Assembly (NCBI GenBank): GCA_013290045.1
Contig: JABCYU010000008.1
Coordinates: 1-32,353, forward strand
Length of the DNA: 32,353 bases
Direction: 5' to 3'
DNA from: Methanobacteriota archaeon
Lineage (GTDB): Archaea; Thermoplasmatota; Thermoplasmata; Lutacidiplasmatales; UBA184
Positions 8,785-26,936 of the stretch are shown in pieces. Both the position numbers and the translations under genes were made by a program. The notes below the pieces were generated by a model, which had not been told where the DNA came from, did not search any database, and saw nothing but the letters and a program-made list of their open reading frames with translations. Numbering within the stretch: position 1 is the first letter of the stretch; each line of letters starts with the position of its first letter.

Positions 8785-8857
8785 GCGGTTGTGGTCTAGC
8801 GGTCTAGGACGGTAGCTTCCCAAGCTACCTACCCGGGTTCAAATCCCGGCAACCGCA
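8785..8857 (+). tRNA. tRNA-Gly (anticodon CCC)
   Basis: A complete 73-base cloverleaf can be drawn by eye. The acceptor stem is GCGGTTG/CAACCGC with discriminator A. The D stem is GTCT/GGAC. The anticodon stem is GTAGC/GCTAC with loop TTCCCAA, giving anticodon CCC, which reads GGG glycine codons. The T stem is CCGGG/CCCGG with loop TTCAAAT. CCA is not encoded and no intron is seen. The integrase gene follows 43 bases later, so the 3' half of this tRNA is the likely attachment site. Confidence 0.96.
8830..8857 (+). other. probable attL core within tRNA-Gly 3' end
   Basis: The T arm and acceptor 3' strand of tRNA-Gly(CCC) adjoin the integrase gene. Integrases of this type usually recombine within a tRNA 3' end and leave an intact tRNA on one side and a short direct copy on the other. 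I searched by eye for a copy of this segment across the window and found none. The exact crossover limits are therefore not defined, and the call rests on position only. Confidence 0.5.
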
Positions 8858-8900
8858 CTCCCCTCTAGTTCATATCCCATTGGGGCCCTACGTCAGAGCG

Positions 8901-10370
8901 ATGGGCCGGAAGAAGACGCCGCCGGACGACGCGTTCGCCGACGTCCACTTCGTCCGAACCTACATTGAGCACCGGATTGCCCAGCTGAAGTCCAACGGCC
9001 CAGTTGGCGGCGAGAAGGACCTCGGACGAGCAGAAAGAGATGCCATTCTCGATTTCGTCCAGAGCCGCCGAGGGGTTGTGGGGGAGCTCCGCATCCGCAC
9101 CTACCTCGCGTGGCTTCCGCTCGCGGGTGCGCGAATCGGCGAGCACTTCCTCGATCCGGGTCGGGACGCCCCGACCAAGTTCAACGCCGTGTTTCCGACC
9201 ACGGCGTACGCCCGAGCGTCACGCACCACCGTCGCTCAGTGTCTCGCCTCATTCTGGCGCTGGCGCTTCGAACGGGTCGGGAAGGAGTACCCCTCGTGGT
9301 TGCGGATCAAGCTGGAGAAGTGGAAGTCGACGAGCACCGCTTCCGATATGCTCACGCGCGAAGACATCGCTTCGATCGTCGAACAGGCCCAGAACTTCCG
9401 GGACCGCGCCTGGATTTGGACTCTGTTCAACTCGGGATGCCGACCCGGAGAAATTTACCAGCTCCGCGTCGGGGACGTGGTCCCCCATGAGGAGGGATAC
9501 ATCGAACTCCGCGTAAACCGGGAGAAGGGCTCGGCCCCTGAGCCAGCCCCCGTCTACGAGGACGCTGTTCCGGCACTACTTGCCTGGTTGAGCGCCCACC
9601 CGAGGCGCGAGGAGCCAAATGCCCCCCTCTGGGTCAACTTGGGCGGAGGCAATGCCGGGAAGCCCGCGACGTATCGGGCCATGTACAAGGCGCTCGAGAG
9701 TGCGGCTCGCAGGGCGAAAATCTCGAAGCCGGTCACGGCGTACGCCCTCCGTCGGTCTCGCCTAACAATACTGGCGAAGGATCCAGCGGTATCGACATCC
9801 ATCCTCGAGAAGGTCGCCGGGTGGGTTCCCGGAAGTAACGTGGCGCGTCACTACGTGCACCTGAGTGGTAAGGACGTCATCGGGGCTCTGAACACACGGT
9901 ACGGCGTCAAGACCCGAGGACCAGGCGAGCCTCCAGCGGCACCACGGACGCCATCGAAATGTGGCCGTTGTAGGACTGTTAACCCGCCAGGGGCGTCCTA
10001 CTGCTCGACTTGCGGGGGACCACTTTCGCTGCCGGCGGTGAAACAGATCGAAGAGGCCCGGGGTGCCGAGGAACGTCTCGCGGAGCTCTTGAGCGACCCA
10101 TCCGCGGTCGAGTTTCTTGCCCGGTTGTTGGCCGAGAAGGGCCGTACCCCCCCTGACCGACGGGCGGGCGCTTCGAGCGATGAAGGAGTGCGTTTCCCTG
10201 GGGTCCAACTCGACCCCGACGTGGAAGGTCATGCTCGATCATCCCCGACGTCCCAACGAGTTGTCTCGCTGTCGGAGGCCGAAAAGTTGATTGGGTCGGG
10301 CTACGAGTTCGTGGCGTCGTTGGGTCCAGATCGGGCAGTGCTGCGCTTCTTGGGGGGGCCCGCGAGTTGA
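8901..10370 (+). CDS. tyrosine recombinase/integrase with C-terminal zinc ribbon
   Basis: A 489-residue integrase counted from the ATG at 8901; a TTG at 8880 would add seven residues. The N-terminal 150 residues form a SAM-like DNA-binding region. The catalytic domain shows Arg in NSGCRPGEI (residue 181), the beta-hairpin Lys in NREKGS (209), Arg in YALRRS (284), Trp in VAGWVPGS (308) and the nucleophile Tyr in ARHYVHLSG (318). Box II has Tyr where most recombinases have His (YALR instead of HxxR). A CGRC...CSTC zinc ribbon (354-371) and about 115 further residues follow the catalytic domain. It presumably integrates and excises the element at the adjacent tRNA-Gly. A small hairpin overlaps its stop codon. 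Confidence 0.92.
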   Translation: MGRKKTPPDDAFADVHFVRTYIEHRIAQLKSNGPVGGEKDLGRAERDAILDFVQSRRGVVGELRIRTYLAWLPLAGARIGEHFLDPGRDAPTKFNAVFPTTAYARASRTTVAQCLASFWRWRFERVGKEYPSWLRIKLEKWKSTSTASDMLTREDIASIVEQAQNFRDRAWIWTLFNSGCRPGEIYQLRVGDVVPHEEGYIELRVNREKGSAPEPAPVYEDAVPALLAWLSAHPRREEPNAPLWVNLGGGNAGKPATYRAMYKALESAARRAKISKPVTAYALRRSRLTILAKDPAVSTSILEKVAGWVPGSNVARHYVHLSGKDVIGALNTRYGVKTRGPGEPPAAPRTPSKCGRCRTVNPPGASYCSTCGGPLSLPAVKQIEEARGAEERLAELLSDPSAVEFLARLLAEKGRTPPDRRAGASSDEGVRFPGVQLDPDVEGHARSSPTSQRVVSLSEAEKLIGSGYEFVASLGPDRAVLRFLGGPAS

Positions 10371-12813: not shown

Positions 12814-15800
12814 TCAGGGCTCGGCGACCAGCCGGATCTCGCGAATCTGAAGCTTGATGCCGTTGATCGTTCCGATTTGGAGATCACCAACCTCTTTGAT
12901 CGCCTTCTCCATGAGGGTCAGCCCGGGAGCGTCCATCCTTGGTCGGATGGTTGGATATTTCTGACCAGCGAGGATCGAGTCAAAGATATCCGGCAGCGCT
13001 TGCAGCTCAGTCGAGGATGCCCAATCCATCCGGTCCTTGAACTTGAGGTTTAGGAAACTGGTGCCCGGGTACGAGTAGAACAGTAAATTTTCGATTCCCT
13101 TCTCGAACGTGGCGAATCGTCCCCAGCTGACCGGTTGAGAAACGAAATCCGTGCAGCGCTCTGCTTCGGGCTTCCACCCAGTACGCGGTGGCTCGAGGCT
13201 GAGGCGTCCTTCCGCCCCTTCCACAATGGCCGTGAATTTGGGCATGACTAGGTCGAGCAACGACCTGTAGAGATCCGACCCGAACCCTCCGAGGGGCAGG
13301 GGCGGACCCATCGAGTTCTCCCACTGGGTGAAACGGGCGCCGAGTTGGCCGTTCTCGATTCCTCCCCGCAAGTGAGTGACCCACCCGCTCCTCGCCAGCA
13401 GGAAAACCCGATACGCGCCGAAAGGCTGAAGAAACCGCCAATCACGGGGCCCGCGAAATCTTGTACGGCTATTCCCGAGCTGGCCAAGCGCTATTCGAGC
13501 CGGATCTTCCAGGAAGTGTGACATCCAAATCCGGGCGACCTCTGCAGCTATCTCGCCGCGAGCCGAGGGGTGGGAGCGGGCGAGGTCCGTCTCGGGCAGT
13601 TTCGCGTTACTGCGCCCCCGCCACTTTAGGGAGAGTCGCGCCTTCGGAGGGAACGGAGAATATGCCTCTGGCAGCCCTGGAACGGGTCCCAAGAGGAATC
13701 CACCGCGAAGAAGCGAAGAACCCAAGGATTGGGTCCGATGTCCATGGTCGTCCGGTAGGTCTTCGACACCAGGACCCATCTCTCGGACGGTCACGAAGAC
13801 CGCATCCGGATTTCCCTTCGTCTTCTCTTCCAGGTACCCCTCTATGGCGCCGAAGTTTGGTATCGCGATCTCACCCTCGATTAGGTTCGAATCTGTCCCC
13901 ACGGTGATTCGCGTGAAGAATTTCTCGACCTCCGGTGCTAGGGTGATCGTCCGCGCGACTGGTCGCAAAACATCCGTCGTCGGTTCTGGCCCCCCACTCG
14001 TGGTAAGAAGCACGTCATATGGCAGCTCTTGACAGACCCGTAGTATGTACTGCCGTATCTCCGACCAAGCCCAATCGGCCGGTTCGGCTTCGGATCCCGC
14101 CCGAGGTCGAAGCACCAACGTCACTTTGGTACCCTTGAATCGTTCTACGCCCTGATTCTTCGCCATCCTGAGGTGAATCAGCCGTGTGGGTCCGTCGATG
14201 GTCAGAGTCCTTTTCGCCGTATCCCCCGAGGGCGATGCCCATGAACTGGTTTCGACTTGGACTCGATCAGAAAGCAGAAAGCACGCGAGGAAACCGACGC
14301 CAAATTCGGACACGGGCGCGAAGTCAAGCCCTGCACGACGTAGTTCGATACGGGTGCGGAAGAAGGAGTCGGAATCATAATACGAGCACCCAACGCGGAG
14401 AAAGTACCCCTTCAAGGTGGCCTCGTCCATCCCGACGCCACTGTCTTCTACCGTGAGAGTGGGGGGGAAATCTTGGCCAGACCGATCCGTGAATCGAATC
14501 ACAATTCTGTCACGCCTGGTCGGGGTGACCGCGGGGTCGTGCAGTTGCGTTAGGGCGTCCCGGAGCAGGCAGGCATCAACCGAATTCTGGATAAGCTCCC
14601 GAATCGCGTCGAGCGGGTTGGAGTAGATGGCCCCACCCATGAGGAGCTTATGGATGCGGTCGTCGTCGAGGCTGAAGCTGTACGGAAAGTATGTGTAGCC
14701 TTCGGCATCGATTATCGTGCGCACCTCGCGCGGGAGCGCGATAGTACCGGTGCCGAGTTCAGCCGGCTCGAACGTGTCTAGGGTCGAGACTACTTCCTTT
14801 CTTATCACGTCTGTAAAGTCCAGAATCGCCTTGTGTACGACCGGCGATGAGCACCTCCCCCGGAAGATCAGGCTCTCGCGGCCGATTTCCCAATTGGAGA
14901 TCGATAGGTGCTTGGTCCACTCGCGGATCGACGCTTGTTCAGCAGACCCGGAGGGGGGGCTCACCAGGTAGTAGAAGAGAATCGGCGGGGTCCGCTCCCT
15001 GTCGAAGTCTAGGATATCCCCAAGGCGGAGGCAGGCGGCAGCTAGATGGGTGTCGACCGTGAAGCGGCCGATTGGAATGGCTCTGAATCGTCGCCGCGAG
15101 GGATCCTCTGGGGAGGCCTCGGCGAGACAATCGGCAGACTCGCCATGACTGGTGCAGACCTCGATCAGGGCCGGTACAAGAGAATCTCCGCCTTGGGAGA
15201 GGCAGGAATCAACTGATGGCACCGCTTCCGGGTCCTTGAGATTAGCGGCTCGGAGCACCGCCAAGAGTTCCTCGTACCGTTCCCTTGTTGCATGCCGTTC
15301 TCTGGTGTCGTCAGCTAGCGCCACCTCTTCGAGCTCGTGCAGGTTCCACTGGATCCGGGAAAGCTCCTCCGCCTCGTGAGGTTGATCAGATAGGACTCTC
15401 CTGAGATCATCTATTCTCCGCTTGAGGGGTTGATCGGCAGACATTCCAGAAATGCGTTCGAGTACCTGGGGAAGCCGGAGCTTTCGTTCGTTGGGGGAAA
15501 GGGCCATCCCCATGTCATGGAAGTAAGCCGCAGCGACGATGAGCACAATCTCGGGCGGAGATAGCCGCCTGCGCCGTTCAGGATCGAGAATACACCAGGC
15601 CAAGTGGGCTACCTTCCGCCCATGGGTCTCATCATGGAGCGTAAACGTGCTCAGCTCTCCGCTTGTGGTTCGATTGAGGATTGGTCCCACGAGCTGTTCG
15701 ACAAACTGTCGCAGCCCCACCAGCAGCGCGCCCGCAGCCTTCAGCTCGGCCGGTGCCATCCGAACAGCCTCATCCTCGTGGTATGACTCCGAGCCTGCGG

Positions 15801-16071
15801 CATACGCCGCGAGTCTCTTGACTAGATCAAGGTCATCGAATGACTCGGGAGTCGGGGGAAGGGCCACGTTCGGCGATGATTGGGGTCTTGATAACTCCCT
15901 CCGCGCGCGAGGTGAGCCGCCCAGGGGTGTCGCCTTGGCCCGGCCGAAACGCAGCCACAAGGAAACGGCGCTTCCAGAAGAGGTGGATTGGAGAAGGGGG
16001 ATTCCGACCTCCCAGGAATGGGGAGGTTCCGTAAGCGGGCCCTCATGACGCTGCCTTTGGGTAGCGAGCAT
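12814..16071 (-). CDS. HD-domain / Hsp90-type ATPase fusion protein (candidate defence protein)
   Basis: A very large protein of 1085 residues from the ATG at 16071. Residues about 140-355 form an HD-type metal-dependent domain: HDETHG (146-151), AAYFHDMGM with the His-Asp pair (185-186), HGESAD (309-314) and LRLGDILDFD (348-357). Residues about 460-660 form a GHKL/Hsp90-type ATP-binding domain with the N box RELIQNSVDAC (491-501), DSGVGMD (543-549), EFGVGFLACF (589-598) and GTKVTL (647-652). The last 420 residues are unassigned. HD plus Hsp90-type ATPase in one chain occurs in bacterial and archaeal conflict proteins, with the ATPase as a likely sensor or switch and HD as a possible nucleotidase or nuclease. 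The first 75 residues look unstructured, so the true start may lie further in. Confidence 0.82.
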   Translation of the reverse strand: MLATQRQRHEGPLTEPPHSWEVGIPLLQSTSSGSAVSLWLRFGRAKATPLGGSPRARRELSRPQSSPNVALPPTPESFDDLDLVKRLAAYAAGSESYHEDEAVRMAPAELKAAGALLVGLRQFVEQLVGPILNRTTSGELSTFTLHDETHGRKVAHLAWCILDPERRRRLSPPEIVLIVAAAYFHDMGMALSPNERKLRLPQVLERISGMSADQPLKRRIDDLRRVLSDQPHEAEELSRIQWNLHELEEVALADDTRERHATRERYEELLAVLRAANLKDPEAVPSVDSCLSQGGDSLVPALIEVCTSHGESADCLAEASPEDPSRRRFRAIPIGRFTVDTHLAAACLRLGDILDFDRERTPPILFYYLVSPPSGSAEQASIREWTKHLSISNWEIGRESLIFRGRCSSPVVHKAILDFTDVIRKEVVSTLDTFEPAELGTGTIALPREVRTIIDAEGYTYFPYSFSLDDDRIHKLLMGGAIYSNPLDAIRELIQNSVDACLLRDALTQLHDPAVTPTRRDRIVIRFTDRSGQDFPPTLTVEDSGVGMDEATLKGYFLRVGCSYYDSDSFFRTRIELRRAGLDFAPVSEFGVGFLACFLLSDRVQVETSSWASPSGDTAKRTLTIDGPTRLIHLRMAKNQGVERFKGTKVTLVLRPRAGSEAEPADWAWSEIRQYILRVCQELPYDVLLTTSGGPEPTTDVLRPVARTITLAPEVEKFFTRITVGTDSNLIEGEIAIPNFGAIEGYLEEKTKGNPDAVFVTVREMGPGVEDLPDDHGHRTQSLGSSLLRGGFLLGPVPGLPEAYSPFPPKARLSLKWRGRSNAKLPETDLARSHPSARGEIAAEVARIWMSHFLEDPARIALGQLGNSRTRFRGPRDWRFLQPFGAYRVFLLARSGWVTHLRGGIENGQLGARFTQWENSMGPPLPLGGFGSDLYRSLLDLVMPKFTAIVEGAEGRLSLEPPRTGWKPEAERCTDFVSQPVSWGRFATFEKGIENLLFYSYPGTSFLNLKFKDRMDWASSTELQALPDIFDSILAGQKYPTIRPRMDAPGLTLMEKAIKEVGDLQIGTINGIKLQIREIRLVAEP

Positions 16072-16755
16072 CGGGCGTATTCGCACGTTTCAAGCGGAAT
16101 ATCTGCTTGGGGCTACCCAGGGACTCTGGGATCGTTGCCGCAAGGCGTCCTGAGCCGAAACCCAGCACTTCAGGCACACCCCCCCGGGTCACCTCAGACG
16201 GCACGAGCGTGGTCGAGAGGGCCAACTTCGGTCTCACTTCCTCTCAGAAATCTCTACCGGACCGCCCTCCGCTTTAGCGAGGGGGACGCCGTTCCCAGCC
16301 GGTTCATCCCCAGTGAAGCCAGGCCACTGGGATTCGAACGGACGGAGGAATCTCTGCGCAAGCACTCTCGAGGGGAACGAGTTGGGTAAGGGGCGCGCGC
16401 CCATATCCCCGAGACGGGTCAGAGGCGCGTTCCAACCCACTCCCGGGATGCCGAGCGTCGGCCACCGCGTGACGTCTTCAGTGGCAAGGAGGAGGCCGAT
16501 TTAGGTTGGCTCCTTGGCCGGGTCAGCGACTTTCGGGGACTCACCAGGGGGATCCATTGAGAGTTCTTTCGCTCGACTCTGAATCGCCCGAAAGGCTCTC
16601 AGTAGCCCCGACGAATCGAATAGCTGCGCTCGGACACCATCCAGCGAGGAGGGGGGCTCAGGGTCCCTGGACTGAACACCGGTGCCTGCTCGACGTTGGG
16701 GAGGGTACGACATGGATGGGTAGGGTCCTCACCTGAGCCCGCATCCCGGCAGTTT
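16072..16755. other. gene-free stretch between divergent genes
   Basis: No protein-like frame is found. On the minus strand an AT-richer spot (agatattcc, around 16107-16117) lies about 40 bases before the HD/Hsp90 start and could be its TATA element. A tRNA-T-loop-like string (gggattcgaac at 16329-16339) is present but has no stem. The rest shows nothing I can name. Confidence 0.35.
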
Positions 16756-22160: not shown

Positions 22161-23141
22161 ATGGACCCCGCGACTAGGTTCAGACCCACCACGCTTGAAT
22201 TTGATATCCATGACCGTACGAACCTGGAGCACCTTTCCCAGCTTATCGACGCCAGCGCCGAGTTCAAGAAGCTAAGTCCCGACCTTCCTGCGTCGACGAT
22301 AGCCGACACAGTTCTGGCTTGTCGCGGGATCGAGGTGTTAGGTTTCGCTGGCTCGACAGCCGATCTTTCGCGTCAGTTCCTCTCTTCAAGGCTACCGGAG
22401 CGGGCGTTGGAAGTTTTCGCCGGGTTCCTCCCGGATGCTGACGAGAAGGTCGAGGTACTGTTACCCAAAGAGGTGGTCGCTAGAGAGATTACGGACCGTC
22501 TGGCTACGCAGATGCCTGGCTCGTCCGGCACGCAAAAGCTGCTCGAGTACGACCGGCTCGGGGGCGGGGGCAAGGGGAAGTTCTTTCTCGCCGAGATGGA
22601 CTTCGGAATCCAACCAAGCGCTCAATACGGGGTGGAGTACGCAAGGTTTAGCGCGGCGTGGAGGCCTGCTCAGTGCAAGGATGGGCGCCACCTTCGGACA
22701 TACGCGATCGCCCCCGACACAGACTGGCAAAAGTACGGAAACCGGACCTGGAAGCTTGCCGTCACGGGCGACCTGGGCCTCGGCCTGCCAGAGGCAGCCG
22801 TTCCGGGAGTATCCGCCGGCCTCAAGGCAGGGGTGAGTTACGTTTACGAGACTCAATTGACCCTGACGCAGGCGGTCGTGACCGCCACTAACAACGGTAA
22901 CGACGAGATGTCCTGGGCGATGAAACGAAACCCAGAGACGGGGGAGGACCCCCGTGGATCGTTCAGGATGTTCGCCACGCTCGGGATTCCAGATGGCTTC
23001 GGCCAGACATTGGAGGAGCTCCGCTCCCGGGTTCGAGTCCGGCTTGGCGGGAAGGTGAAGCGATCGACCGGCTGGAGTTTCACTGAACCTCGGAGGACCC
23101 AGGAGGCGGTAACCGCGCGCATTAGGTTCATCACCGGGTAG
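22161..23141 (+). CDS. hypothetical protein, 326 aa, first gene of an unknown group
   Basis: ATG at 22161. Not recognised. The N-terminal 130 residues are mostly helical (NLEHLSQLIDASAEF; LPASTIADTVLAC; REITDRLATQM). A Gly-rich hinge (LGGGGKGKF) follows, then a strand-rich second half (FLAEMDFGIQPSAQYGVEYARFSAAW; RTYAIAPDTDWQKYG; LAVTGDLGLGLPEA; SYVYETQLTLTQAVVTAT; FRMFATLGIPDG; RVRVRLGGKVKRSTGWSF). The alternating polar and hydrophobic pattern there suggests a beta-sandwich or barrel-like domain. No signal sequence. It stands before the AT-rich small ORF and the 728-residue gene on the same strand, separated by a 480-base gap. Confidence 0.6.
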   Translation: MDPATRFRPTTLEFDIHDRTNLEHLSQLIDASAEFKKLSPDLPASTIADTVLACRGIEVLGFAGSTADLSRQFLSSRLPERALEVFAGFLPDADEKVEVLLPKEVVAREITDRLATQMPGSSGTQKLLEYDRLGGGGKGKFFLAEMDFGIQPSAQYGVEYARFSAAWRPAQCKDGRHLRTYAIAPDTDWQKYGNRTWKLAVTGDLGLGLPEAAVPGVSAGLKAGVSYVYETQLTLTQAVVTATNNGNDEMSWAMKRNPETGEDPRGSFRMFATLGIPDGFGQTLEELRSRVRVRLGGKVKRSTGWSFTEPRRTQEAVTARIRFITG

Positions 23142-23621
23142 CCATCCGGCGAGACCCTCTGGAAGCCCGGCATGCGCGTCGCGTCCTTCCAACAGCTCTG
23201 CCTGAAGCCAGCGTTGATTTCTGGGGACAGGCAACCCCAGATTGTTCTATCGAGCCCGAGAGAGGACACACCCCCTGACCCGACTCCCCTACCCGGATCG
23301 CTTGAGGAAACGATGCTTTGAACCTCTTTTCAATGCGCGATAACCGCATGCCCCCGAGACTGGACCGCCCGGTGGGTTAGCGGGTCGGATCTCAGTCGAA
23401 TGCCAGGGCCCAAGCCGGAGGGCTAGCCAGGTAGGAGATCGGCCGAGACGGCACCTGGATATCGATTCCGGCTCAGGCCGATTGAGGGCCCCCACGTCGG
23501 CCGCCTCGGAGGACTCGCCTGGAGCTCGGCCAAGCAGGAATCCCGACGCGACGGGATGCTGAACGGGCAAGAACGAGTCGATTCCAGTCTTGTGGAACCG
23601 TGGGAGCGACCTCCCCTTCCG
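23142..23621. other. gene-free stretch
   Basis: 480 bases without a convincing frame; open frames on the minus strand are Arg/Ser/Gly-rich shadows. No strong hairpin or repeat is seen. Confidence 0.35.
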
Positions 23622-23810
23622 ATGAACATCACCCTTCAGGTGGGGCCGGTAGACTCCACTATACAGGTCGACACCGGCCTAGCCAGCTACAGTACGCCAG
23701 ATTATTCTGGTGTCCTTTATGATTGGATGTATTCTAGGTTTTCTAACATTGATACACATTTACGCACCATAATGCGCACGAACGTCGAATCAATCGTTCT
23801 TCAACGCTGA
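23622..23810 (+). CDS. possible 62-aa protein in an AT-rich patch
   Basis: The ATG at 23622 opens a 62-residue frame (MNITLQVGPVDSTIQVD..., ending in NVESIVLQR). Its second half uses many A/T-ending codons, unlike every neighbour, because 23690-23830 is the most AT-rich stretch of the window. The product is protein-like in composition, with Tyr/Trp/Asp residues and no Arg/Pro bias. It could be a small recently acquired gene, or chance coding over an AT-rich regulatory region. It lies about 240 bases before the 728-residue gene. Confidence 0.4.
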   Translation: MNITLQVGPVDSTIQVDTGLASYSTPDYSGVLYDWMYSRFSNIDTHLRTIMRTNVESIVLQR

Positions 23811-24051
23811 TAGGCAGATTCATTAGGTGCGTAGATGGGCGGAGTTCAGCACGCCGGTGGACGAAACTCAGCAGATTCCGCGGAGTTACTCCAATCATTC
23901 GACTTTCTGGACCCTCGCTCGGGGCTCTGACTGGCCTCCCGGCCTCACGGCGCCGCCAATTGGGACGGCGCACCCTGGGAGGCGGCCGGTTGAGTCCGCC
24001 TTCTGTCATTTCGATTCCCCTGTTCTTGAGCAAGGGGGGTAGGAGATTCCA

Positions 24052-26238
24052 ATGTCGAGAAATGAGTCGGGATCGATAGAAGTTCGGCTGGCCGGCCTCC
24101 AGCCCGGGGACCGCAAGCCCGTTGTGGCCCTGTACCTCATCGGACCGAAGGGTGTGATTGAAAGCAAGATTGGCGCGGTATCTGAAGATCGGCTAACCAT
24201 CCCAGCCAAACTCCCTCGAACAAGGGAGACAATCCTCGCCCTCGGGCCAGACAGCCCCGACCCATCAACTCTGAACCCCGGTGCACTCTTTCAGGTGCGG
24301 GGGGACCAGATTGCGAGCTGGGAGGCCGGTGGCCTCGTCACCATTCCCAGGAGCATTTGGTTCCCGTGGCCATTCTGGTTCGCCTGTGTCTCCGGGAAGG
24401 TCCAGAAGTGTCCCTGGATCATCTGGGATCAGCCCAGCCCCGGTTATCGCCCGATCCAGTTTCCCCCATTCCCCTGGCGATGTGCCCCAATCTGTAACGG
24501 GGTGGTGGAGGTTTACGAGCAGCGGTGCTGCTGCAGGCTCCTCTACGAGCCGATTGATCTCGCGGGGCTGATTGCTGCGCTCCGAGAGTACGTCGTCCAG
24601 TTCCCTCCGATCCCCATTCCTGGACCGGGACCGGACCCTTTCCTGGTAGATCGGGAACTCGCTTACAACATCAAGGTTGGCCAGGCGACCGCCGAACGAA
24701 CCAACGGAGGGCTGCCTGGGTTCGACGCAGTGGCCGAAATCGAGAAACTACAGTCCTACACCCCCGAGGAAGCGACGGTCTACGTTCGGGGGGCCACCTA
24801 TCTTTGGCCTTTCATCTGCTCGTGCGAGTCCCGGTTGGTTGGGGAAACAGTTCTCGGACCGGGCGGCGACTTCTCATTCTGCTACTTTAGATTCCCGTTT
24901 TTTGAATGGCCTTGGCTCGACTGCTCTTTCAGCTACGCCTACAAGGTCAAGCAGTGGAATGGGACAGGATGGGACTACGTCTACGACGGAGTCGCGCTTC
25001 GACAGTACTTCATGGACGACTCGAACGCGCTTATCACCACGTTCCTTGGCCAGGCCTGTGACCCCGGATCCCCTGTCGGATCCAACCGCCCATACGTCAT
25101 GTTGGAGGCAATCGGCTCGACGGACAGCTGGCACCTCGTGAGCGGAGATCAGACGGCAAACCTGACTATGCCCTCTCCTCCTGCTAACGGAGGTCTGGTG
25201 TTCCCTCCCGCGTCCGGTTCAGGGGACCTCGCAGGCGGGGCTGGTGCATCGCCGCTCAACGCCCCCTGGGGGCAGACCCTCCCGCTCCGCCTCCGGTTCG
25301 ACCCGGGTATGCAAGGGTTGGGCGCAGCGTTCTACAGAATCAGTGTCGTTCCTACCACCGACGGGATGAACCCCTCCGGACCGGCACAGGTTCTGACCAG
25401 CCCGGTAGCATGGGGAAAGTTCGTTTCGGTCGGCGGCCAGGTGGTCGTACAGAACACCAGTCTCGGGCCCCAAGTTGTCGGGGGCCAGGATGGGCTTTAC
25501 GAGATTCCGTACGGCCCAGATTGGCTCTGGAGTCAGTTCCACAACTACTGGACCACCGCTTCGGGCGACCCCACGGCGGGGGGAGCCAAGTACTTCGCGG
25601 ACGGGAGGTACTTCGCGATGGTGGAGGTCTTCGATGCTACCGGAACGAGGCTGGTCCCGGACACGCAACCCGCCGTTGCGCCCGATCAAGCACAAGCATT
25701 TGACTACCTGAAATGGGAGACGGCCGCGACCACAACGAAGATTCCCTACGCCGATCTCCTTCACCTGTTATGGATCGACAACAACCCGTGCGTCGCCCAC
25801 ATCGTTGACCTCCGCGAGAACGGAGCGCCCAACCCCGATACCTGCCAGTACATGTCCGGGGGGTGTTGCGATCAATTCTCGGCCGGTTTCCGCGCCTACC
25901 ATCCAACGATTGACTCGATCACTGCACCTGAGACCTTCATGCAGTATTTCGAGGTGTGGTGGCGTCAAGGGCTTGGTGGGTCCAGCGGTATCCCTCAGGA
26001 GGGCTCAACCAACGAACCCCACCCCTGGTCCGCGTTCAACCCTGCAGTCACCCCGCCTGGGTCCTTCTGCAGCATGTTGGGCGTCCTACCCGACCTGATC
26101 GACCCGTGCAAGCCCCAATCCCCCGCGAAGTGCACGTTCGCGCTCAACCTCTACGTCTGGGCCAAGCATTGGAACGGGAGCGGTCGACTTTCCATCTACG
26201 ATCGCTCGGATCAGGCCTCCTTCTCGCTGGAGGTCTAA
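24052..26238 (+). CDS. large cysteine-rich beta-sandwich protein, 728 aa
   Basis: ATG at 24052 with a good GTAGGAG Shine-Dalgarno site. Residues 1-100 form a strand-rich opening domain. Then come aromatic/Pro-rich segments with clustered cysteines: FACVSGKVQKC (112, 120), RCAPICNGVVEVYEQRCCC (144, 148, 159-161) and ICSCES (256, 258), plus Cys277, 291 and 336. The pattern of a carboxypeptidase-regulatory-like beta-sandwich (GxVxxC..., then ...NGxVEVYE...) resembles a bacterial family I know only as unnamed Cys-rich proteins. Residues 340-728 are Gly/Pro/Trp-rich with further Cys pairs (SGGCCDQF). There is no signal peptide or membrane helix. The dense Cys set could bind metal or form disulphides. 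Function unknown. Confidence 0.68.
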   Translation: MSRNESGSIEVRLAGLQPGDRKPVVALYLIGPKGVIESKIGAVSEDRLTIPAKLPRTRETILALGPDSPDPSTLNPGALFQVRGDQIASWEAGGLVTIPRSIWFPWPFWFACVSGKVQKCPWIIWDQPSPGYRPIQFPPFPWRCAPICNGVVEVYEQRCCCRLLYEPIDLAGLIAALREYVVQFPPIPIPGPGPDPFLVDRELAYNIKVGQATAERTNGGLPGFDAVAEIEKLQSYTPEEATVYVRGATYLWPFICSCESRLVGETVLGPGGDFSFCYFRFPFFEWPWLDCSFSYAYKVKQWNGTGWDYVYDGVALRQYFMDDSNALITTFLGQACDPGSPVGSNRPYVMLEAIGSTDSWHLVSGDQTANLTMPSPPANGGLVFPPASGSGDLAGGAGASPLNAPWGQTLPLRLRFDPGMQGLGAAFYRISVVPTTDGMNPSGPAQVLTSPVAWGKFVSVGGQVVVQNTSLGPQVVGGQDGLYEIPYGPDWLWSQFHNYWTTASGDPTAGGAKYFADGRYFAMVEVFDATGTRLVPDTQPAVAPDQAQAFDYLKWETAATTTKIPYADLLHLLWIDNNPCVAHIVDLRENGAPNPDTCQYMSGGCCDQFSAGFRAYHPTIDSITAPETFMQYFEVWWRQGLGGSSGIPQEGSTNEPHPWSAFNPAVTPPGSFCSMLGVLPDLIDPCKPQSPAKCTFALNLYVWAKHWNGSGRLSIYDRSDQASFSLEV

Positions 26239-26324
26239 CCGGAGTTAGACCCGGGGGCGGCCCGGCGGTCAGTTGATACGATTGCGTAGTTTAGGACCGA
26301 CTACATGCTACTCCCCGGTTGGAA

Positions 26325-26669
26325 ATGGTACTCCTAGCTTGGGGGTCGTGGAGTCCGTGGTTCGTTCTCGTCTTGGCCGTCCTGGTGACCTGGCGAATCG
26401 CCCACCTAGTCGCTGTCGAAGACGGGCCGCTAGGTCTGATGGCTCGGATACGGGCAAGTCTTGGACCGTCCGGTGCCGGAGGGCTCGTCAGCTGCTTCGG
26501 GTGCGTGAGTCTCTGGATCGGGTTGATCCTTGCCGTGCTAACCTTCCCGACGTTGCCCCAAATCGTCCTGGCGTGGTTGGCCTACTCCGGGGGCGCCTTC
26601 CTGTTGGAGCGATTCACCCCACAGACAGTCGTGATCGAGCGCGTGCCTGAGGGAGCGGGAGACGGGTAA
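26325..26669 (+). CDS. DUF1360-like membrane protein, 114 aa
   Basis: ATG at 26325. Membrane helices at about residues 9-28 and 64-92 flank a short loop. TWRIAHLVAVEDGPLGLMARIRA is followed by SCFGCVSLW with a Cys-x-x-Cys pair (57, 60). This succession (Thr-Trp-Arg in the first helix, Glu-Asp-Gly-Pro, then C-x-x-C-x-S-x-W at the second) is what I know from DUF1360-type proteins, often found in phages and phage-derived clusters. Their role is unknown. It lies between the 728-residue gene (86 bases upstream) and the Met-Gly-Cys-Cys protein (three bases downstream). Confidence 0.7.
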   Translation: MVLLAWGSWSPWFVLVLAVLVTWRIAHLVAVEDGPLGLMARIRASLGPSGAGGLVSCFGCVSLWIGLILAVLTFPTLPQIVLAWLAYSGGAFLLERFTPQTVVIERVPEGAGDG

Positions 26670-26672
26670 GCC

Positions 26673-26936
26673 ATGGGATGTTGCGGTGGCAACCGGGGGG
26701 TGGGCTCGCCCCACACCCCTCGCAGGATGGAACACGGGCCCGAGGCCGTGGTATCGCCTTCCACCAATGGCGATGTCAGAATCCGCTATGTGGGGAAGGA
26801 TTCGATTGCAGTCCTGGGGCCTGCGTCGGGTCGTAGGTACGAGTTCAACAGCACGACCCCCGTTGGACTCGTTCGGGCGGCGGATGCATCGATACTCGTC
26901 AGAACCCGACTTTTCGTGACGGCAGAGGTCAAGTAG
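26673..26936 (+). CDS. small Met-Gly-Cys-Cys protein, phage-associated type, 87 aa
   Basis: ATG at 26673, three bases after the stop of the DUF1360-like gene, so surely co-transcribed. It starts MGCCGGNRG. A flexible region follows, then a compact strand-rich unit (VRIRYVGKDSIAVLGPASGRRYEFN; VRAADASILVRTRLF). The succession CCG - 'YVG...VxGPxSGRxYxF' - 'xDAxxLxxxxxF' matches small proteins I know from phages, especially Mu-like ones. I recall the pattern but no family name. Function unknown; the N-terminal cysteines may bind a metal. Confidence 0.65.
   Translation: MGCCGGNRGVGSPHTPRRMEHGPEAVVSPSTNGDVRIRYVGKDSIAVLGPASGRRYEFNSTTPVGLVRAADASILVRTRLFVTAEVK

Follow-up and report, generated by a model that had tools for sequence, protein, structure and literature searches.

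In type III-E CRISPR systems, an ECF sigma factor is coupled to a TPR-CHAT protease and to the protease substrate Csx30 (PMC10028731). This assembly, the Craspase (Csx29-Csx30-CASP-sigma), is a parallel in logic only to one form of the three-gene cassette described here (type B, see below), in which an ECF-like sigma factor, a TPR-CHAT protease and a large partner protein (hereafter BIG) are likewise encoded in a single gene run. However, neither Cas7-11 nor Csx30 was seen with the cassettes, and the archaeal copy comes without the sigma factor and CHAT genes: no TPR-CHAT protease, ECF sigma factor or Cas7-11 was detected beside the BIG gene anywhere within the window, that is, the entire 32,353-base contig of a fragmented 2.2-Mb archaeal genome.

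The second point of comparison is the DUF1360 family (PF07098), which has in common with the membrane protein of the cassette its C-x-x-C-containing second half. With a curated cut-off of 21 bits, the profile match is borderline for the archaeal protein (20.6 bits, E = 4.7e-4; 21.1 bits when the genome was searched) and clear for a bacterial one (25.8 bits at locus L018). The cassette subfamily stands apart from the wider family by invariant WR-x-x-HL, EDGP and R-x-R motifs of its own and by a neighbouring small gene dedicated to it, denoted MCCG in bacteria and MGCC in the archaeon. Remote DUF1360-like membrane genes (28-33% identity, E = 1e-4 to 3e-3) are present in the actinophages A3Wally (gp81; L077, 5986-6270) and Sixama (gp71; L078, 5998-6291); they differ from the cassette genes in being located directly before the portal gene, and neither BIG nor MCCG was recognised beside them.

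The left part of the archaeal contig encodes an archaellum/pilus-type ATPase and a membrane protein with nearest matches to FlaI (E = 2e-123) and FlaJ (E = 2e-20), respectively, and has a GC content of 66-72%, compared with 56-64% beyond a tRNA-Gly(CCC) gene (8785-8858, plus strand). A tyrosine integrase with a C-terminal zinc ribbon (8880-10370, plus strand; PF00589, E = 1.7e-15) starts 21 bases 3' of this tRNA gene, and the region looks like an integrated island, with the tRNA gene as the probable integration site. No second att copy of the tRNA-Gly end was found before the contig end, placing the right end of the putative island beyond the contig. The same island carries, on the minus strand (12814-16086), a gene for a 1090-aa protein combining HD-CE (PF24391, E = 1.5e-35) and HSP90-like ATPase (PF13589) domains, a pair associated with conflict systems.

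Further along the contig, the first-pass annotation had listed four same-strand open reading frames, the last two three bases apart, and all four were found where it had placed them, on the plus strand. They encode a 326-aa protein (22161-23141, ATG at 22161, nested in a longer 368-aa frame that starts with GTG), the 728-aa BIG with 19 cysteines (24052-26238), the DUF1360-like membrane protein (26319-26669; 116 aa from the TTG at 26319 or 114 aa from the ATG at 26325) and, after the three bases gcc, the 87-aa MGCC protein, which starts with MGCCGG (26673-26936). The 728-aa, 326-aa and 87-aa proteins produced no match in Pfam, PHROGs or NCBIfam, and BIG did not resolve to a well-known family; it fits no named one. 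Because each of the BIG, DUF1360-like and MGCC genes has significant homologues arranged in the same order elsewhere, the coding status of the three is, on homology grounds, beyond chance. The 326-aa gene had been placed in the same candidate gene group, but its product has no match at any cassette locus; as judged by this comparison, it is outside the shared unit and is given here as context only.

No match to the archaeal 728-aa protein came from direct searches of genome contigs, viral contigs, phages or plasmids. By contrast, a degenerate DNA pattern derived from the core of the 87-aa protein and scanned over 84,980 genomes yielded nine loci, in eight of which a DUF1360 gene lies directly upstream of the small gene, with a large gene (~730-820 aa) 5' of DUF1360 wherever the contig extends far enough. 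A second search, seeded with the DUF1360 profile alone and thus blind to the small gene, added loci in Acidobacteriota and Methylomirabilota as well as a second locus in genome G432. Of the nine strong new loci from this search, eight place a large gene before DUF1360 and MCCG after it; the remaining one, L057, consists of frame-broken remnants. Given that the DUF1360 profile alone recovers the complete set at these eight loci, the arrangement is not just a product of the search. Altogether, BIG, DUF1360 and MCCG are found in the same order on one strand at 16 bacterial loci, in Acidobacteriota, Methylomirabilota and one burkholderial genome, in addition to the archaeal one. In-frame stops interrupt the small gene of L013 and the BIG gene of L043; the latter stop, a TAA in the frame 330-2582 of what is the closest complete bacterial cassette, means either that the gene is broken or that the assembly is in error.

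We define the cassette as three genes in fixed order on the same strand, with a DUF1360 protein that contains EDGP and C-x-x-C-x-S-x-W and with MCCG directly downstream, and the archaeal copy, compared with the 16 bacterial loci, displays every one of these features. At the level of sequence, this comparison demonstrates that the three archaeal genes are a copy of the bacterial cassette. The earlier proposal of a transferable module in an archaeon, with relatives described as bacterial or phage-associated, is thus borne out for a bacterial-type unit, whose genes occur together in other genomes; the phage association holds only weakly, through the remote actinophage DUF1360-like genes, because neither BIG nor MGCC produced a match in viral contigs or phages. 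Degenerate patterns made from the C-terminus of BIG also gave no match in viral contigs.

The two short proteins form the constant part of the cassette. The DUF1360-like protein is predicted from hydropathy to span the membrane with about three helices, and the archaeal sequence is 33-49% identical to the intact bacterial cassette proteins (tblastn E down to 1e-27). The alignment, at ~40% identity, reveals the motifs WR-x-x-HL, EDGP, R-x-R and C-x-x-C-x-S-x-W, comprising the invariant residues W25, R26, H29, L30, E34, D35, G36, P37, R43, R45, C59, C62, S64 and W66 (116-aa numbering), so laid out that the first helix is followed by a loop with EDGP and the invariant arginines, and C59-x-x-C62 opens the next helix. 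MGCC matches the bacterial MCCG genes with tblastn E values of 3e-12 to 3e-5; its C-terminal domain follows the pattern RY.........G...G..Y.F....PV..V...DA, and the small proteins have in common R38, Y39, G49, G53, Y56, F58, P63, V64, V67, D71, A72 and F81, an invariance that is partly by construction because some of these residues were built into the search pattern. In the AlphaFold model of MGCC, residues ~34-87 mostly have pLDDT >85, which corresponds to a folded C-terminal domain preceded by a flexible Cys-Cys N-terminus. The likeness of this model to the GINS B-domain and to the C-terminal domain of lambda gpFI (E = 0.12 or worse) was not used. Conservation extends further for the DUF1360 C-x-x-C and for the Cys-Cys start of the small protein than for the cysteines of BIG, although a few copies, L046 among them, depart from the Cys-Cys start, and it was not seen in L016.

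The large proteins differ between loci. BLAST comparison sorts them into five families without detectable mutual similarity: type A (L010, L011, L014, L017, L018, L037 and the Methylomirabilota copies), type B (L036, L040 and L046), type C (the archaeal protein and L043), type D (L045, with transthyretin-like domains) and type E (L044). The archaeal BIG, which has no evident signal peptide or transmembrane segment, is 30% identical over 612 aa to that of the Acidobacteriota locus L043 (E = 2.5e-59), where it is followed by DUF1360 and a clear MGCC gene in a full cassette. The locus comparison demonstrates that the DUF1360-MGCC pair is constant, with an upstream large protein interchangeable among at least five families. 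Profile comparison (P = 2e-5 for A and B, P = 0.002 for A and C) hints at a C-terminal beta region shared by types A, B and C, which we regard as suggestive only. A C-x-[YF]-x-x-x-[LIV] pattern near the end of BIG is present in 15 of 17 proteins of types A-D, against 0.45% of shuffled tails; we dropped it as a docking tag because it was picked post hoc and because some BIG proteins encoded outside cassettes carry a similar motif.

Such standalone proteins came from a type C search, which identified seven further Acidobacteriota genomes (L087-L093) with the gene standing by itself. They resemble the archaeal BIG in sequence, size and lack of a signal peptide and differ from it in having neither DUF1360 nor MCCG; the nearest two match it almost end to end (L087, E = 1e-77; L088, E = 8e-58). 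The remote relatives L090-L093, also large signal-less single genes of Acidobacteriota, contain a PVC.ATVEIYEVDP-like motif. The occurrence of the archaeal-type BIG without the pair in at least seven Acidobacteriota implies that BIG can work alone. Of the 19 cysteines of the archaeal BIG, roughly twelve recur in most members of the close subgroup (the archaeal protein, L043, L087 and L088), whereas only C148, C336 and C598 are shared by the whole alignment of nine type C proteins, and the distant relatives lack most of the others. Since the conserved cysteines are also found in cassette-free relatives, they do not define the module. The description as metal- or disulphide-rich accordingly suits the BIG of the archaeon and of its close kin, where such chemistry is possible, but it is not a trait that the module conserves.

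The cassette is patchily distributed. Matches to the DUF1360 profile were found in 6 of 247 Acidobacteriota genomes (~2%; five of them strong), in 5 of 95 Methylomirabilota (one remnant included) and, among 299 sampled Pseudomonadota, in the starting genome and as one marginal match only. In the archaeal phylum, the cassette DUF1360 is present in 1 of 293 genomes, the one under study, which is also the only one of 390 archaeal genomes with BIG; other archaeal BIG matches (E = 2e-4 to 9e-3, <20 bits) were rejected as short chance matches. A set of 60 relatives gave no match. With no other sampled archaeon carrying the cassette and with the tRNA-Gly/integrase island around it, the archaeon likely gained the cassette horizontally from bacteria in a rare event. 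In the DUF1360 tree, the archaeal sequence branches with L044 with modest support (90/85) and on a long branch, so that the donor cannot be named.

What the three proteins might do together we infer from sequence comparison for all steps past gene co-occurrence. We tentatively favour a model, itself held at well under even odds, in which DUF1360 and MGCC dock the signal-less, cysteine-rich, beta-domain BIG at the cytoplasmic face of the membrane as part of a stress or conflict device. DUF1360 would be an integral membrane adaptor with its EDGP, R-x-R and C-x-x-C motifs facing the cytoplasm, an orientation predicted by the positive-inside rule: the invariant arginines follow the first helix in a loop, and loops rich in arginine usually lie on the cytoplasmic side. 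BIG and MGCC would also be cytoplasmic, and MGCC would be the soluble member of the pair, its Cys-Cys end cooperating with the C-x-x-C of DUF1360 through a shared metal or a thiol relay, although the DUF1360 cysteines could serve folding only. Together, the pair may hold BIG at the membrane, where it would serve as a scaffold or as an effector, induced under stress or attack and perhaps deployed under special sigma factors. The structure model of a type A BIG was poor (pLDDT 49.5) and unfit for a fold search, so no fold supports the docking idea.

Gene neighbourhoods bear on what such a device might be for. At the type B loci L036, L040 and L046, the same three genes come after the cassette in the same order: first one for an ECF-like sigma factor (region 4 confirmed), next one for an anti-sigma factor with a confirmed zf-HC2 domain, and last one for a TPR-CHAT protease (E = 1e-48 to 2e-57), which makes an arrangement of six genes. 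These neighbours suggest protease-gated regulation at the type B loci. The CHAT link was seen with type B BIG only, and the archaeon would have gained the three-gene core only. A trypsin-PLD protein is encoded ~1.2 kb past the L043 cassette and a trypsin-like gene lies near L042; sigma-54 response regulators occur within ~8 kb of five cassettes, a raw count of genes that are common. A possible, if doubtful, alternative is a conflict system proper, in which a BIG effector or sensor held by DUF1360-MGCC is freed or activated by a nearby TPR-CHAT or trypsin-like protease under ECF or sigma-54 control. The protease neighbours, the HD-CE/HSP90-like ATPase protein on the archaeal island, the sparse occurrence in Acidobacteriota and the analogy with type III-E CRISPR are consistent with this scenario. 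However, none of BIG, DUF1360 and MGCC matched the PADLOC anti-phage defence profiles, and most cassettes have no adjoining protease, including the archaeal one and that of Pelomonas (L014), which stands alone among metabolic and housekeeping genes. Still more doubtful is an extended form of the docking model, in which a portable docking unit with interchangeable BIG proteins, switched by sigma factor and CHAT protease in bacteria, was transplanted into the archaeon as a working stress or immunity device.

An alternative role for BIG as a disulphide- or metal-linked, coat-like scaffold of a structural envelope layer, anchored by DUF1360 in the manner of the Bacillus subtilis spore coat, seems unlikely. 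Among 14 control genomes, DUF1360 matches were obtained in B. subtilis, where the protein is presumably YjcA, encoded near cysteine-rich coat genes, and the dozen or so cysteines common within the close type C subgroup would suit such a layer; however, distant BIG relatives lack most of them, BIG showed no sequence link to coat proteins, and no cassette host is known to sporulate.

Equally improbable, or slightly more so, is a role for BIG as accessory or cargo of a contractile injection system, in which an eCIS-like particle would carry it as a payload or use it to dock at membranes. In the Methylomirabilota genome G1007, a contractile-tail cluster on the same strand ~5 kb downstream of the cassette encodes sheath, tube, spike/PAAR and baseplate-like proteins (sheath and emfourin confirmed by Pfam, the others read from sequence), with genes for an M4 peptidase, emfourin and DUF3467 in between that recur downstream of the L057 remnant. 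Yet this link rests on one genome and one clade: no matches to the G1007 tail genes were found in the tens of kb around the cassettes of G433, G608, G460 and G434, nor was a sheath gene (PF04984) matched in the archaeal genome, which is 89.5% complete. At L056 (12273-19724) and L059, we noted a contractile-tail cluster ~5 kb from the cassette with M4 peptidase, emfourin and DUF3467 genes upstream.

Finally, that the genes have no joint function, and that chance and common descent keep them together as hitchhikers on mobile DNA, is very unlikely: BIG families do also occur alone and sequence data cannot prove an interaction, but order and strand are kept from the archaeon to three bacterial phyla at 30-49% protein identity in differing surroundings.

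We found no description of the cassette in the open-access papers searched, a single one of which mentions DUF1360, and it corresponds to no known system; although a prior description elsewhere is possible, we rate it on present comparisons as an undescribed kind of module. It places part of DUF1360, a membrane family without known function, in a genomic context for the first time and appears to represent a bacterial three-gene unit that moved whole into an archaeon. With a constant membrane pair and an exchangeable partner, identifying the process served by the pair would explain five uncharacterised families of large proteins together.
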